From contig NZ_JJOY01000048.1 of the NCBI RefSeq assembly GCF_000979455.1, positions 124,001 to 188,000 of the forward strand: a stretch of DNA of 64,000 nucleotides. Reading direction: 5' to 3'. How positions within the stretch are numbered: the stretch's first letter is position 1; each line of letters starts with the position of its first letter. Shown one piece after another: positions 23,571-30,478 of this stretch. The notes beneath the pieces are model-generated. The model had not been told where the DNA came from. It saw only the letters and a list, made by a program, of their open reading frames with translations, and did not search any database. The translations under genes were made by a program, and so were the position numbers. The stretch comes from Methanosarcina sp. 2.H.T.1A.6. Its GTDB lineage: Archaea > Halobacteriota > Methanosarcinia > Methanosarcinales > Methanosarcinaceae.

Positions 23571-23691
23571 CACATTATTTAAATTTGTCAGATTGAATCT
23601 ATTTAATTATATTACACTGATGTTTCATGCTAACAAAAAACTGCAGACATAAGGAAACCCGGGACCCGAATTTATTGTTAGAGGTATTTTC

Positions 23692-24675
23692 ATGAGAACT
23701 GGACAGAGGGACGTGCACAATACACCGCTTAAAAGGCGATTGTCAATAACCTATGAGGAGCTCGAGACTCTCAAAAAATCAATCAAGATTTCGGTTCTCA
23801 ATGAACTGCAGGCCGAAATGGAAAACAGTTCCGATCTGGATTCCTTTAAGGATCAGATCCTTTCCGAAATCAGAACCGAATTGAAGAGGCTCCCTGATTC
23901 TGCATCACTAAAGGCTTCAATTATTAGCGAACTGCGAGCCGAATTCAGTTCTGGCAAAGATAATGACTCTTCGACGGCGGACCGGCGGCTGAAGGAACTG
24001 GCAGGAATTCAGGAAGGGCTTGTCAGGGAGCTGCTTGACCAGAAAATGCTTATAAAACAGCTGGAAAAAGACCTCGAAAAACTCTCCGGAGCGCTGGGAT
24101 GCATGCAAAATACTGTTTCTTTCTCTCCCCCCTTGCCTCCCTCTTCTCCTTCTGTTTCTCTTCCCATCCTCGAAGACCCCCTTGACCTTCCTCCTCTCTC
24201 CAGAAAACCAACGCGTAAACTTGAGTTCAGGAAAGAGAATCCTTCCTCACACGAGCTTATTGATTTCAGGGAAGCTCCTGCATCCCTGCCAGGCACAAAT
24301 GCAAAAGTTCAGCTTAAGATAAGGGAGGTTGAGCCCGAGGAACTTGACGAACAGGAGGTTGTCGAAACAAAGTGTGAGTATATCATCGCCGAGAGCGGGG
24401 ATCGAAAACGGCTTAGAGGCAACATGAGGCAGTCGACTCCAGTAAAAGAAGCCCCTGCGGGACAGTTGTTCCCTCCAAGCTCGAGATCTTCTATGAGGCG
24501 CCAATCTCCTGTGAATGCAGATCCTGTAAGAGCCCGACCCGATGATGATTATAAATGCGAGTACATAATCGCCGAAAAGGCTCCAAAAAAGCGTTTAATC
24601 GATGAGTCCGTGGATCTTAGGGATACTGATGATGCGGAAATCATAACCTGCAATCGGAAAGACCCCCAGGCGTAA
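23692..24675 (+). CDS. Unknown protein preceding smc, coiled coil plus two CEYIIAE motifs
   Basis: A 327-residue protein I do not recognise. Residues about 15-140 are charged and helical with likely coiled coils (SITYEELETLKKSIKI, SEIRTELKRLPD, MLIKQLEKDLEKLSG). A Pro/Ser-rich linker (about 145-170) follows. The C-terminal half is probably disordered but holds two copies of a short motif: KCEYIIAESGDRKRLRG (about 228) and KCEYIIAEKAPKKRLID (about 288), and a similar final ITCNRKDP. The stop lies 54 bases before smc, and the scp genes follow, so a role with condensin is plausible but unproven. GAGGT precedes the ATG by 7 bases. Confidence 0.8.
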   Translation: MRTGQRDVHNTPLKRRLSITYEELETLKKSIKISVLNELQAEMENSSDLDSFKDQILSEIRTELKRLPDSASLKASIISELRAEFSSGKDNDSSTADRRLKELAGIQEGLVRELLDQKMLIKQLEKDLEKLSGALGCMQNTVSFSPPLPPSSPSVSLPILEDPLDLPPLSRKPTRKLEFRKENPSSHELIDFREAPASLPGTNAKVQLKIREVEPEELDEQEVVETKCEYIIAESGDRKRLRGNMRQSTPVKEAPAGQLFPPSSRSSMRRQSPVNADPVRARPDDDYKCEYIIAEKAPKKRLIDESVDLRDTDDAEIITCNRKDPQA

Positions 24676-24729: not shown

Positions 24730-27700
24730 GTGTACATAAAAGAAATCGAGTTCGTTAATTTCAAGTCCTTTGGAAAAAAAGTAAAGATTTCCTTTTTCAA
24801 TGACTTCACCACTATTTCCGGTCCTAATGGGAGTGGGAAGTCAAACATCATAGATGGGATTCTCTTTGCGCTCGGGCTTTCGAGCTCCAGGACTCTCCGG
24901 GCTGAAAAACTTACGGATCTTATTTACAATGGAGACGAGGCAAAAAAGCCTGATTTTGCCCAGGTTACGATCCGTTTTGACAATACTGACCGCAAGATGC
25001 CGTTAGAGCTTGATGAGGTTGAGGTCTCAAGAAAGATCAAGCGGACAAAAAATGCGTACTACAGTTACTTTTACTTTAATGGAAAAGCCGTAAGCCTGGG
25101 GGAAATCCATTCCCAGCTTGCAAAGGCAGGAGTAACGCCTGAAGGTTATAATGTGGTAATGCAGGGAGATGTCACGCAGATCACCTCCATGACCTCTGTA
25201 GAAAGGCGGAAAATCATTGACGAAATTGCCGGGGTTTCAGAATTTGATGAGCGTAAGCAAAAGGCGCTCGGGGAACTGGAAATCGTCAGGCAGCAGGTCG
25301 AACGCGTGGACATCATCCTTGAAGAGGTGCGTACCCAGCTTGAAAAACTTGCAGGGGAACGAGACCAGGCACTGAAGTACCAGGCTCTGAAGACTGATAA
25401 AATTAAATTTGAAGGCTATGTCCTGCTCTCCAAACTCAAGGATGCCAGAACAGAACTGGAAAATGTGGACAAAGAACTTGCAGGCAAAGCAGAGCATCTT
25501 GAAAAAGTCCAGGTACTGCTGGACGAGAGGGTTAAGGAATTAGAAGCCCTTGAACAGGCCCTGGAAACAATTTCCCTTGAAATCCGGAAAAAAGGGGAAG
25601 ACGAACAGCTGCAGGTCAAAAGGGAAATCGAAGAGACAAAAGGGGAAATTTCCCGCTGTGTGGACAGCATTGAGCTTTCGGAATCCGAACTTGAAGACGC
25701 TGACGCAAAGCGCAGAAAGGCGTTTGTTGATATCGACTCCACAAAGGGCAAGGTAGGGGAGCTCGAAGAGAAAATCGAAACTGAAAACGTGAGAAAAGAA
25801 AGCATCTCTTCTGAGCTGTCCGAGAGAAAAACCGAGCGTATGCTGCTTCAGAGCAGGATTGCGGATGTGGATGCAAAATTTGCAGCAACAAGGGACGAGC
25901 TCATGGCTGCCCGCAAGAAACTTGAGGACATTAAAAACAAAAAAAATGAGCTTATCCGAAATGAGGACCGGCTCCTTGATACCCTCAGGAGAAAATCGTC
26001 GGAATTGCGGGATATCGAAAACCAGATCAGGGATGCAGAAGCTGCATTCACTGCCTCTGATAGTGATACTCTTTCTGTCCAGTATGAGATTGAGAAGCTT
26101 ACGGAAAACCTGGAGTCCCTGATAAAAGACCGTGACGATGTCGAGAGCAGCCATTTCAGGGTCAAGGAAGACATAAAGAAACTTGAGAGCAGGCTTCACG
26201 GGCTCCAGCAGGAATATGCAATTGCCGAGGCAAGGGTCCGGGCTTCAGAACAGGGAGGCGGATATTCAAGGGCTGTGGAAATGGTAATCGGAGCTTCCAG
26301 GCAGAATGAACTCTTTGGAATTCACGGGACCATTGCCCAGCTGGGAAAAGTTGACCGCAGGTATGCGGCTGCCCTTGAGGTTGCTGCAGGTAACAGGATG
26401 CAGGCAGTTGTTGTAGATAATGATGGGGATGCTGCAGAGGCAATCGAATTCCTGAAGCGGAGAAAGGGCGGAAGAGCTACCTTCCTTCCGCTTAATAAAA
26501 TGAGGGATTCCAGGCGGCTTGAAAGCCTCAGTTATGAAAATGGAGTAATAGGGTACGCAATTGACCTCATCGAATTTGATCCCGACTTCGAACCTGCTTT
26601 CTGGTATGTTTTCCAGGATACCCTTATTATGGAAAACCTTGCCAGTGCCCGCCGTTTCATGGGAAAGGCAAGAATGGTCACCCTTGAAGGTGAACTCCTT
26701 GAAAAGAGTGGGGCAATGGTTGGAGGTTCTCTTTCTTCAAAATCGGGGATCTCTTTTGCGGCAGCGGAAAAAGACAAACTCCTTGAGCTTGCAGGTGAGA
26801 TTAAATCCCTCGACGCAAGCCGGACTGCAGCGATCAGTAAACAGGACAACATTGAAAGCCACGTTTTTGAGCTGAGCAGGAAGATCCGCGACTGTGAGGC
26901 TACCATCTCCAGAAAAGAACTCGAGCTTCAGGAAATTGCCGGCAGGGGAACCAAACTTACAGAACTCCTTGAAGCTAAGCAGGCAGACCTGAGAGCAATT
27001 GAAGAGTCCAGGACAGAACTCAGGGCTGAAATGGACAGTGTAATTGCAGAAAAGGCTGAAAAAGAAGGCGCTTTGGCTGAACTTGAGGTACAGGTTGCCG
27101 AAATTGAGGCAAAACTTGCTGATTCTCCTCTCCCCGAGATCAACAAAAAAGCCGAGTTTGTAGACGAGGAAATCCGGAGACTTGACGGCAGGATCAGGGA
27201 CACCGAAGCAAACCTGAATGCCCTGCAGCTCGAAAAAGAGTATGCTGAGCAGAAGATTGCCGAAGCTAAGGAGCTTATCCGGGAACTCGATGAAAAGAAA
27301 GCTTCAAGGCGTGAAAAAGTAGATTCTCTCAGGGCAAAAATTGCGGAACTTGAAGTGCAGCTTCTGGAAAAACAGAACCGGGAACTTGAACTTTCCGACG
27401 AGCTTATGGGGCTCCAGAAAGAAAGGGAAAATGTTCAGGCCGAATACAGTGCAGTAAAGCGCAGGGTCAGTATAGCCGCAACCACCCTTGAAAAGGCAAA
27501 ACAGCAGGTACTTACTCTCACAGCTACGAGAAGTGCACTTTTTGACCAGGAAAAGCAGCTGCTTGAAGAGATACAGAGAAGGGGCATAGAAGAATCCTTA
27601 GAGGTCCCGAGTTACGAAACCGTTTACATAAGGATCCAGGCAATCGAAGAAGCCCTGCGCAGGCTTGAACCTGTAAACATGAGGGCAATCGATGAGTATA

Positions 27701-28257
27701 ACGAGGTGGAACTAAGGCTTTCAGACCTGCAGGGCAAACGCGATACTCTCTTTTCCGAAAGAGAACAGCTCCTTGAACGCATTGACCATTACGAGCAGCT
27801 CAAGCGGGACACCTTTATGGAGGCTTATACAAGCATAAATACCAATTTCAAAGAGATTTTTTACGAGCTTTCCGATGGCATGGGAGAACTCCTGCTGGAA
27901 AACCTTGATGACCCCTTTGCCGGAGGAATGACCCTCAGGGCCCAGCCAAAAGAAAAGACTCTCCAGCGTATAGAAGCCATGTCCGGAGGAGAAAAGAGCC
28001 TTACCGCACTTGCCTTTATTTTTGCAATCCAGCAATACCGCCCCGCTCCTTTCTATGCCTTTGACGAGATCGACATGTTCCTTGACGGCTGGAACGTGGA
28101 GAGAGTCTCAAGGCACGTTAAAACTTCAGGCTCAAAAGTCCAGTTTATTGTTGTTTCCTTAAGAAAACCCATGATCCAGGCGGCAAGCCGGACTATCGGG
28201 GTTACAATGCAGGAGAATAACATCACGAGTATTACCGGAGTGAAGTTTAATGGCTGA
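24730..28257 (+). CDS. smc: Chromosome segregation protein SMC
   Basis: A 1175-residue SMC ATPase. Walker A GPNGSGKSN is at residues 33-41, followed by long heptad-rich coiled coils, a hinge at about 520-680 (GIHGTIAQLGKVDRRYAAAL, GGRATFLPLNK, MVGGSLSS) and the C-terminal head with signature MSGGEKS near 1083 and Walker B FYAFDEIDMFLDGWN. The D-loop region (MFLDGWN) differs from the usual AALD form. Start is GTG with AGAGG 7 bases upstream. It overlaps scpA by 8 bases, the classical condensin operon. Confidence 0.97.
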   Translation: MYIKEIEFVNFKSFGKKVKISFFNDFTTISGPNGSGKSNIIDGILFALGLSSSRTLRAEKLTDLIYNGDEAKKPDFAQVTIRFDNTDRKMPLELDEVEVSRKIKRTKNAYYSYFYFNGKAVSLGEIHSQLAKAGVTPEGYNVVMQGDVTQITSMTSVERRKIIDEIAGVSEFDERKQKALGELEIVRQQVERVDIILEEVRTQLEKLAGERDQALKYQALKTDKIKFEGYVLLSKLKDARTELENVDKELAGKAEHLEKVQVLLDERVKELEALEQALETISLEIRKKGEDEQLQVKREIEETKGEISRCVDSIELSESELEDADAKRRKAFVDIDSTKGKVGELEEKIETENVRKESISSELSERKTERMLLQSRIADVDAKFAATRDELMAARKKLEDIKNKKNELIRNEDRLLDTLRRKSSELRDIENQIRDAEAAFTASDSDTLSVQYEIEKLTENLESLIKDRDDVESSHFRVKEDIKKLESRLHGLQQEYAIAEARVRASEQGGGYSRAVEMVIGASRQNELFGIHGTIAQLGKVDRRYAAALEVAAGNRMQAVVVDNDGDAAEAIEFLKRRKGGRATFLPLNKMRDSRRLESLSYENGVIGYAIDLIEFDPDFEPAFWYVFQDTLIMENLASARRFMGKARMVTLEGELLEKSGAMVGGSLSSKSGISFAAAEKDKLLELAGEIKSLDASRTAAISKQDNIESHVFELSRKIRDCEATISRKELELQEIAGRGTKLTELLEAKQADLRAIEESRTELRAEMDSVIAEKAEKEGALAELEVQVAEIEAKLADSPLPEINKKAEFVDEEIRRLDGRIRDTEANLNALQLEKEYAEQKIAEAKELIRELDEKKASRREKVDSLRAKIAELEVQLLEKQNRELELSDELMGLQKERENVQAEYSAVKRRVSIAATTLEKAKQQVLTLTATRSALFDQEKQLLEEIQRRGIEESLEVPSYETVYIRIQAIEEALRRLEPVNMRAIDEYNEVELRLSDLQGKRDTLFSEREQLLERIDHYEQLKRDTFMEAYTSINTNFKEIFYELSDGMGELLLENLDDPFAGGMTLRAQPKEKTLQRIEAMSGGEKSLTALAFIFAIQQYRPAPFYAFDEIDMFLDGWNVERVSRHVKTSGSKVQFIVVSLRKPMIQAASRTIGVTMQENNITSITGVKFNG

Positions 28258-29317
28258 ACTTATAGATAATTCGGCACTTGATATTTCCGGACTTCCTTCC
28301 CCCGATGTTCGTGAATCGGGGGAAAAGAATTCTCTTTTTTCAGACCCCGAAGTTTTCGGGCTTCCGAACACTCTTTCATGCCTCGGCGTTGATTGGACTC
28401 TGCTCGACCTTTCAGAGTTTGATTCCTATGAGCCCCTGGGTATCCTGGTCGAACTTGCAAAGGACGGGAAGATCGATCCCTGGGATATCGATGTTGTGCA
28501 GCTAACTGACAGTTTTCTGCAAAGGATAGAAGAGCTCCAGAAAATGGACCTGAGGATTTCCTCAAGGACTCTCCTTTATTCAGCTGTCCTCCTCCGAATG
28601 AAATCTTCAGTAATTCTCGGAACGGAAGAAGAAGAAGATGATTTTGACTCTGGATTTTTCGATGATGAAGACCTCCCTGAGCCTGATGAGTTTCCTATCC
28701 CAAAGCTGCCTGTCCGCCGCCTTTCCACAAGGCCTGTCACACTGAATGAACTTATTCTGGAGCTTAAAAAAGCTGAAAGGACGCTCTCAAGGAAAAACGA
28801 AAAGAAAGCCCGTCTGGCTGCAGAAGAACCTGATATTTCTCCGGATCCCCTTACTACCGGAGACGTGCTCGGGATTGCCCACGACGAGGCGATCGGTTCG
28901 AGGCTGGTACTTATCTGGGCAAGGCTTGTTGAACTATTTATGAAGCAGCCTGTTGTGGAGTTTTCTGACCTCCTTAAACTGAGTGAAGACAGGATCATGG
29001 ATTACCTTTCCCTCCTCTTTCTTGCTTCGAGCAGAAAGATCTGGCTTTTCCAGAGTGAACTTTTCGGGGAATTGTATATTTATCCAGGAGAAGAATCAGG
29101 GTTTTCTACGGAAGGCAACCCGCCTCTCTTCCTTCAGAGCAAACAGGGCTTAACAGGAGATGTTTCAGAGCCTGAATTTTCTATGGAAGACAATTTTGCA
29201 AACAGTAAACCTCCGGTTGAGTACACTGATGGAGAGCCTGATGAAGCCGGGTATCCCGAGGTTCTGTCCTTTGAGCCGGAACATATAGATGTAGACTCTC
29301 CTGAAGAAACACGTTAA
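28250..29317 (+). CDS. scpA: Segregation and condensation protein A
   Basis: A 355-residue kleisin. The N-terminal SMC-binding part has PLGILVELAKDGKIDPWDID and VQLTDSFLQRIEEL, then LRISSRTLLYSAVLLRMKS. A Glu/Asp-rich linker follows, and a winged-helix region (VVEFSDLLKLSEDRIMDYLSLLFLASSRKIWL in parts) near residues 225-270 binds the other SMC head. The last 80 residues are acidic and look disordered, longer than in bacterial ScpA. Starts inside the smc stop (ATGGCTGA overlap). Confidence 0.93.
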   Translation: MAELIDNSALDISGLPSPDVRESGEKNSLFSDPEVFGLPNTLSCLGVDWTLLDLSEFDSYEPLGILVELAKDGKIDPWDIDVVQLTDSFLQRIEELQKMDLRISSRTLLYSAVLLRMKSSVILGTEEEEDDFDSGFFDDEDLPEPDEFPIPKLPVRRLSTRPVTLNELILELKKAERTLSRKNEKKARLAAEEPDISPDPLTTGDVLGIAHDEAIGSRLVLIWARLVELFMKQPVVEFSDLLKLSEDRIMDYLSLLFLASSRKIWLFQSELFGELYIYPGEESGFSTEGNPPLFLQSKQGLTGDVSEPEFSMEDNFANSKPPVEYTDGEPDEAGYPEVLSFEPEHIDVDSPEETR

Positions 29318-29362
29318 CTCAAATGAAAAATAACCTTATCCTCTTTTTTGGTCGTGAAACTT

Positions 29363-30478
29363 ATGAGTGAGCTTGAAATTATCGAAGCGGCTCTTTTTGC
29401 TGCGGGCAGGGCAGTAAGCCTTGAAAAACTTATGAAAATTACCGGAAAGCCAAAAAAGAATGTCTTTTCGGCAGTGCAGGAGCTGATGGAGGCTTACTCT
29501 TTCCGGGGATCAGGCCTCGAAATTCTGGACCTTGGAGACCGTTACGTTATGCAGGTTAAGCCGGAGTACTCCGAACTTATGCGGGACGTTGCCCCAAAAG
29601 AACTATCCGCCCCCAAACTCCGGACCCTCTCTATGATTGCCTATCATCAGCCTCTGCTCCAGTCCGACCTTATCGATATGAGGGGCAGTGGGGCCTATGA
29701 TCATATAAAAGACCTGATTGAGAGAGGATTTGTTGAGTCTGTGCCCAGCGGGAGAAGCAGGCAGCTTTCTACAACTTCTCTGTTTGCAGATTATTTCGGG
29801 CTCAAAAGAAATGACCCTAAAGCCATAAAGGAAAAAATCATTGAACTATTGAGGTCGCAGGGAGGGCAGAGTGAGATAAACCTCTGGGTTGGGAAAAAGA
29901 TCATTGCTGTGACTCCAATGTATGAGTCCCTTATGGGTATGTGCGGGATTAAAGACTATTTTGTTGCCAATGCTTACCGCCCTTCAAAGGAGGAAATTTC
30001 CCGCCTGCTTGAGGCTGATGTGCTTGTGGTCTCTGCCGGCTACCTTGATACCGTGAAGCAGCATTGTGATGGGGAAATCCTTGAGGTTCGTTCAACAACC
30101 TTTGAAGACCTTATCGAGGCAGTCTCTCTAATCTCTGAAGAACTTTCCGATGAGGTAGACCCCGAAACAGTGGAAAACACTCTTCGGAAGATCAGGGAGA
30201 CGCGGGAAAAATACGTATCTTCGGCTTTCCTAATTGAGAGGAAGGTAAAACCTGCAACTGAGATGGTCTCAAGGATCGTAAACGACCTCAACATACGGAT
30301 TTCTACAGACGGTATCCTTGTTGCTCCGGATTACGGGACTTCACGCGAAGGAGTTAGCATAGGTAATGGGGCAAATATTCTGATACCTACTCACCGCACT
30401 GTAGAGGGCGACCTTCTCGAGAGGGTCTGCAAAAAATATGATTCCCTCCTTGAAGGCTTGAAAAACTTTGAAGAATGA
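29363..30478 (+). CDS. scpB: ScpB with long C-terminal extension
   Basis: A 371-residue protein. Residues 1 to about 160 are a normal ScpB with two winged helices (ELEIIEAALFAAGRAVSLEKL, LRTLSMIAYHQPLLQSDLIDMRG, LIERGFVES). About 210 further residues follow that I cannot assign: LWVGKKIIAVTPMYESLMGM, RPSKEEISRLLEADVLVVSAGYLD, ISEELSDEVDPE and a conserved-looking tail ILVAPDYGTSREGVSIGNGA. Bacterial ScpB is about half this length. A TTG 15 bases upstream was rejected for the ATG at 29363. It completes the smc-scpA-scpB operon (45 bases after scpA). Confidence 0.9.
   Translation: MSELEIIEAALFAAGRAVSLEKLMKITGKPKKNVFSAVQELMEAYSFRGSGLEILDLGDRYVMQVKPEYSELMRDVAPKELSAPKLRTLSMIAYHQPLLQSDLIDMRGSGAYDHIKDLIERGFVESVPSGRSRQLSTTSLFADYFGLKRNDPKAIKEKIIELLRSQGGQSEINLWVGKKIIAVTPMYESLMGMCGIKDYFVANAYRPSKEEISRLLEADVLVVSAGYLDTVKQHCDGEILEVRSTTFEDLIEAVSLISEELSDEVDPETVENTLRKIRETREKYVSSAFLIERKVKPATEMVSRIVNDLNIRISTDGILVAPDYGTSREGVSIGNGANILIPTHRTVEGDLLERVCKKYDSLLEGLKNFEE

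Follow-up and report, generated by a model that had tools for sequence, protein, structure and literature searches.

A coiled-coil protein with repeated tail peptides, encoded directly upstream of smc in Methanosarcina: a plausible partner of archaeal SMC complexes

The smc locus and the product of its first gene

The window, i.e. the whole 64,000-nucleotide stretch of Methanosarcina sp. 2.H.T.1A.6 DNA analysed here, carries on its forward strand an ATG-started coding sequence for a protein of 327 residues (23692–24675). A GAGGT element at 23681–23685 (+ strand) is read as its probable ribosome-binding site. After a 54-nt gap follows smc with a GTG start (24730–28257; Pfam SMC_N 236 bits, SMC_hinge 121 bits), then the kleisin gene scpA (28250–29317; SMC_ScpA 70.9 bits), which overlaps the end of smc by 8 nt, and a scpB homologue (29348–30478; SMC_ScpB 133.8 bits), all on the same strand. 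The first-pass annotation had placed the gene directly before smc-scpA-scpB, and the Pfam matches confirm all three neighbours. In the ScpB homologue the matched domain (PF04079) spans residues 7–150 of 372 only, and the roughly 220 residues past it carry no Pfam assignment; ScpB-like ORFs are mostly about 170–205 residues long in lineages devoid of the smc-upstream gene.

Structure prediction of the 327-residue protein as a single chain, which is of low to moderate confidence (mean pLDDT 54), places helices at residues 21–45, 49–65, 70–86 and 93–140, with the firmest prediction around residues 110–130, and predicts disorder for the tail (residues 142–327). The earlier description of a coiled-coil protein with a disordered tail is consistent with this model. 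The N-terminal helices (residues 21–86, 23752–23949) consist of repeated LK.SI..EL..E units and match VASP_tetra (PF08776, coiled-coil tetramerisation) in two stretches at 33.1 bits, above the Pfam cut-off of 25.8, which hints at oligomerisation, possibly as a parallel tetramer. Profile comparison identifies the main helix (residues 93–140, 23968–24111) as the part conserved phylum-wide. It bears the signature GLVRELLDQK (residues 109–118, 24016–24045), with counterparts GVM.ELLDQK, GLTEELVE.K and SLM.EVLYLK in other lineages. A further short segment, EDPLDLPPL (24172–24198), is kept in the disordered tail throughout the genus. Searches of Pfam and NCBIfam revealed no winged-helix, kleisin, ParB or DNA-binding domain in the protein, and NCBIfam, PDB and plasmid searches returned coiled-coil noise only.

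Tail peptides in the genus and across the phylum

The two KCEYIIAE copies already recognised in the first-pass annotation are present at residues 227–234 (24370–24393) and 288–295 (24553–24576), and each is a putative docking peptide. A degenerate third copy near the C-terminus, DAEIITC (residues 314–320, 24631–24651), was absent from that account; it resembles, and is presumably equivalent to, the DDIIVCD C-terminus of Archaeoglobales-like relatives (family f9). The basic K/R-K/R-x-L patch reported after each copy fared less well: it is found in the window protein as RKRL and KKRL, but varies within the genus (KRGL, RRGI, KKHF, KKQI) and is missing in more distant relatives.

Across 30 same-genus genomes, both KCEYIIAE copies are invariant apart from a single E-to-G exchange in copy 2 of one genome (L004), while the spacer between them ranges from 28 to 89 residues and the remaining tail sequence diverges. 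The same genomes spell the two peptides in 20 and 23 distinct DNA versions. Such a variety of spellings for an invariant peptide demonstrates that selection acts on the peptide itself, i.e. purifying selection at the protein level. A nucleotide-level repeat behind the twin copies was considered and rejected: their codons differ, the DNA spellings vary in the genus, and a repeat search found no direct DNA repeat of at least 12 nt at this site.

The peptide is unique to the smc-linked protein. The twin motif goes well past what chance would give: in the whole 4.07 Mb genome, the pattern EYI[I/V]A[D/E] occurs twice, both times in the window gene. Exact KCEYIIAE was found in 24 stretches among 84,980 species genomes and is essentially confined to Methanosarcinaceae: 21 stretches belong to Methanosarcina, other Methanosarcinaceae or a MAG whose protein shares the N-terminus, and the other three are bacterial strays, two of them in frames of at most 30 residues. 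Wherever the flanking sequence of a Methanosarcina copy reaches far enough, smc comes next.

Related peptides mark the tails of more distant members, for which group names (“haloarchaea” and the like) were inferred from the named control Haloferax volcanii, genome traits and sequence. The C-terminus reads DDIIVA or a close variant of it in haloarchaeal members, and DDIIVCD, DEIIVVD and the like in f9 members; in Methanomicrobiales-like members the peptide is internal and reads SEYIVAS, DLIVAE or DMIIAD. A simple tail-peptide pattern was recovered in 55 of 67 tails, whereas 500 rounds of shuffling each tail gave 1.4 on average and never more than 5. In 16 of 18 haloarchaeal genomes DIIVA-stop occurs exactly once, always in the smc-upstream gene, the other two having DIIIA and GIIVA ends. 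A stricter f9 pattern, which is narrow, hit the smc-upstream gene only, in 4 of 14 genomes. The idea of a general hub motif shared among proteins was rejected for EYIIAE and for DIIVA-stop, as each is confined to the smc-upstream gene; so strict a tie to a single protein speaks for a single dedicated receptor. Two departures from the common layout were seen. Many Methanomicrobiales-like members (L135–L136, L139–L152, L155–L156) carry a second conserved tail motif, approximately [DE]LIMQ.DGTLKPE, ahead of YIVAS or DLIVAE, and this group alone has it. Members of family f14 (L163, L167, L198) keep the coiled-coil core before smc and have an RFFHLSKN-like end with no recognisable tail peptide.

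Conservation beside smc and relation to DUF7518

The first-pass annotation had let its proposal depend on the gene being kept next to smc in relatives, and kept it is: a homologue precedes smc in the same place in all 30 same-genus loci fetched, a related ORF lies immediately upstream of smc in all 28 other Methanosarcinales genomes having smc, and the linkage extends to most of the phylum. The ORFs of other Methanosarcinales combine an RDILIERLE-like N-terminus, a coiled coil with GVM.ELLDQK, and tail peptides such as SEYIIAES or DIIIAE; several match Pfam PF24362 (DUF7518, function unknown) weakly. When the PF24362 profile was searched in 148 genomes of the phylum at its curated cut-off of 27 bits, each of the 43 matches above the cut-off lay immediately ahead of smc and in the same orientation. 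Once weak matches are counted too, 72 of 87 lie there; the other 15 all fall below the cut-off, among them two same-genus matches in 1076-residue frames not adjacent to smc. A member was likewise recognised in 67 of 80 smc-upstream regions from other lineages; the remaining 13 comprise 11 without a member, one in which the ORF picker missed the gene despite a DUF7518 match, and one ambiguous case.

The 11 loci without a member belong to families f6, f11, f12, f17, f20 and f21. In the 17 genomes scanned from these families smc is present, and no copy of the gene was detectable beside it or elsewhere; f21 gave two weak matches in a 421-residue frame away from smc and f6 one weak match in a frame with a stop. 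Most of the loci fetched from the six families keep scpA and scpB besides smc. The gene is therefore not universally required, and the complex can do without it.

Searched against the window protein itself, PF24362 gave no match up to E = 10, and G000 had none at E ≤ 0.01, so the threshold is not reached. In four genomes of the same family (G035, G070, G132, G137) the smc-upstream gene does pass the PF24362 cut-off. Profile–profile alignment with hhalign links the genus to other Methanosarcinales at 99.9%, and the latter to f9 (99.1%), Methanomicrobiales-like members (98.6%) and haloarchaea (90.8%); as coiled-coil profiles inflate such scores, these links need the backing of synteny and of the tail peptide. 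The DDIIVA-kind peptide takes the form of EYIIAE, twice, and of degenerate AEIITC in the window protein. The wider smc-linked family is continuous in these sequence comparisons, since close homologues reach the PF24362 model; DUF7518 is its haloarchaeal part, and the window protein belongs to it.

The gap to the smc start is mostly below 30 nt, and often a single nucleotide in f9, which makes co-expression with smc likely. In many of loci L135–L161 smc starts with TTG or GTG about 11–50 nt past the upstream stop, a layout that would fit translational coupling. On the 5′ side the neighbour varies: it is rad50-like in some Methanosarcinaceae (L035, L036, L039) and resembles the aspartyl-tRNA synthetase gene aspS in other Methanosarcinales families (L037–L046, L049–L051), smc alone being constant.

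Proposed role, rival explanations and known SMC partners

Loading and regulation of archaeal SMC complexes are largely unknown, and the smc-linked protein offers a concrete candidate partner. In Haloferax volcanii, deletion of smc abolishes some domain boundaries (review PMC9764264). Archaeal ScpA and ScpB did not bind each other in any of six tested pairs, and scpB is undetectable in haloarchaea (Jeon et al., PMC7055376), which leaves the archaeal complex apparently lacking a subunit. The smc-upstream gene occurs in scpB-bearing and in haloarchaeal genomes alike. A literature search that covered few subscription papers and preprints found no mention of DUF7518, and the parts covered of the nearest papers do not describe the gene.

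The pattern of conservation is best read as that of a docking peptide in a disordered tail. Because the gene stays beside smc and the docking-peptide reading fits its conservation, a dedicated partner of the SMC complex, as the first-pass annotation suggested, is plausible. We judge it an evenly balanced proposition that the product is an accessory factor dedicated to the archaeal SMC-ScpA complex, working by coiled coil and peptide docking. The N-terminal 140 or so residues would then be a coiled coil that probably assembles into a parallel oligomer, and the remainder a disordered tail. One to three short acidic-hydrophobic peptides per tail (EYIIAE here, DDIIVA or DDIIVCD elsewhere) would bind a single cognate surface, probably as an added β-strand; SMC or ScpA is the most likely bearer of that surface. 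Several such peptides on one oligomer could allow it to tether SMC complexes, gather them in clusters or gate how they are loaded. SMC-ScpA is favoured as partner on account of linkage alone, since smc stays while the upstream genes change. A comparison of SMC sequences from genomes with (20) and without (17) the gene gave differences that follow phylogeny, and no interpretable binding site. A role as DNA loader is possible, and nothing favours it over tether, clamp or regulator; the basic patch behind the idea is poorly conserved. Against a core role speak the six families that keep smc with no detectable copy. The f14 members, whose tails show no such peptide, also count against the proposal.

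Regulation by itself may be enough to maintain a gene order, and the product might serve another partner in chromosome biology (e.g. Rad50, replication or division proteins), its adjacency to smc reflecting shared regulation or translational coupling in place of contact with SMC-ScpA. The rad50 and aspS genes found upstream in other Methanosarcinales suit this explanation, as do the frequent TTG or GTG starts of smc within about 30 nt and the existence of lineages with smc and no such gene. It is nevertheless rather unlikely, as smc is retained where those upstream neighbours are exchanged from lineage to lineage, and not one DUF7518 match above the cut-off lies away from smc. Were the protein instead to act on the SMC coiled coil, as a chaperone or assembly factor whose tail is a spacer, the conserved coiled-coil core beside smc would fit; the invariant tail peptide would stay unexplained, and this reading is accordingly quite improbable.

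Two further explanations concern the peptide. Its position at the extreme C-terminus of haloarchaeal and f9 members would suit a degradation or localisation signal, a DDIIVA-COOH end read by a protease or adaptor, in which case the protein would be a short-lived SMC regulator. This is improbable, if slightly less so than the chaperone, for Methanosarcinales and Methanomicrobiales-like members carry the peptide internally and in repeats, and a degron of general use would be expected in further proteins whereas DIIVA-stop is confined to the smc-upstream gene. The tail peptide also resembles a SUMO-interacting motif, a hydrophobic core with acidic flanks, and might form a strand that binds a ubiquitin-fold modifier (e.g. 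SAMP), linking SMC to protein modification. The likeness is one of composition only, acidic residues flanking I-I-V/A, and a hub-binding motif would be expected in several proteins while the tail peptide is unique per genome; we consider this the least probable of the explanations weighed. With versions of it encoded in the same place across most of the phylum, the smc-upstream protein is probably an overlooked dedicated helper of the archaeal SMC machine. As the peptide is found nowhere else in its genome, it presents a small and specific target, in haloarchaea the last six codons of the gene, in a genetically tractable species.

Among known systems, the closest is DUF7518 itself, with which the window protein shares the position before smc, a homologous core of about 40 residues and an acidic disordered tail with a related peptide; it differs in its greater length, its additional helical repeats at the N-terminus and the internal duplicated EYIIAE. 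It has coiled-coil repeats of the 15-residue type known from the VASP tetramerisation domain, although the best stretch covers only 20 of 36 positions and any actin-related context is missing. The tip of SSB offers a parallel in layout only, as haloarchaeal and f9 members likewise would join an oligomeric core via a disordered linker to an acidic-hydrophobic C-terminal peptide; the smc-linked proteins have no OB fold, and their peptide shows no sequence relation to that of SSB, is peculiar to one protein and, in the window protein, is internal and repeated. A possible loading role recalls the bacterial SMC loader ParB by analogy only, the window protein lacking the ParB CTPase and DNA-binding domains. 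Like the kite subunits (ScpB, MukE, Nse1/3) and the kleisin ScpA, it is encoded with smc and is a candidate third component of SMC-ScpA, but it has neither winged-helix nor kleisin domain, and ScpB is encoded separately in the window operon. A more far-reaching and doubtful proposal sees in the DUF7518-like proteins the third component that a kite-less archaeal SMC-ScpA is missing, a multivalent coiled-coil tether that would recruit or cluster SMC via EYIIAE or DDIIVA and would have no counterpart among the known kleisin, kite, hawk and ParB-type partners.
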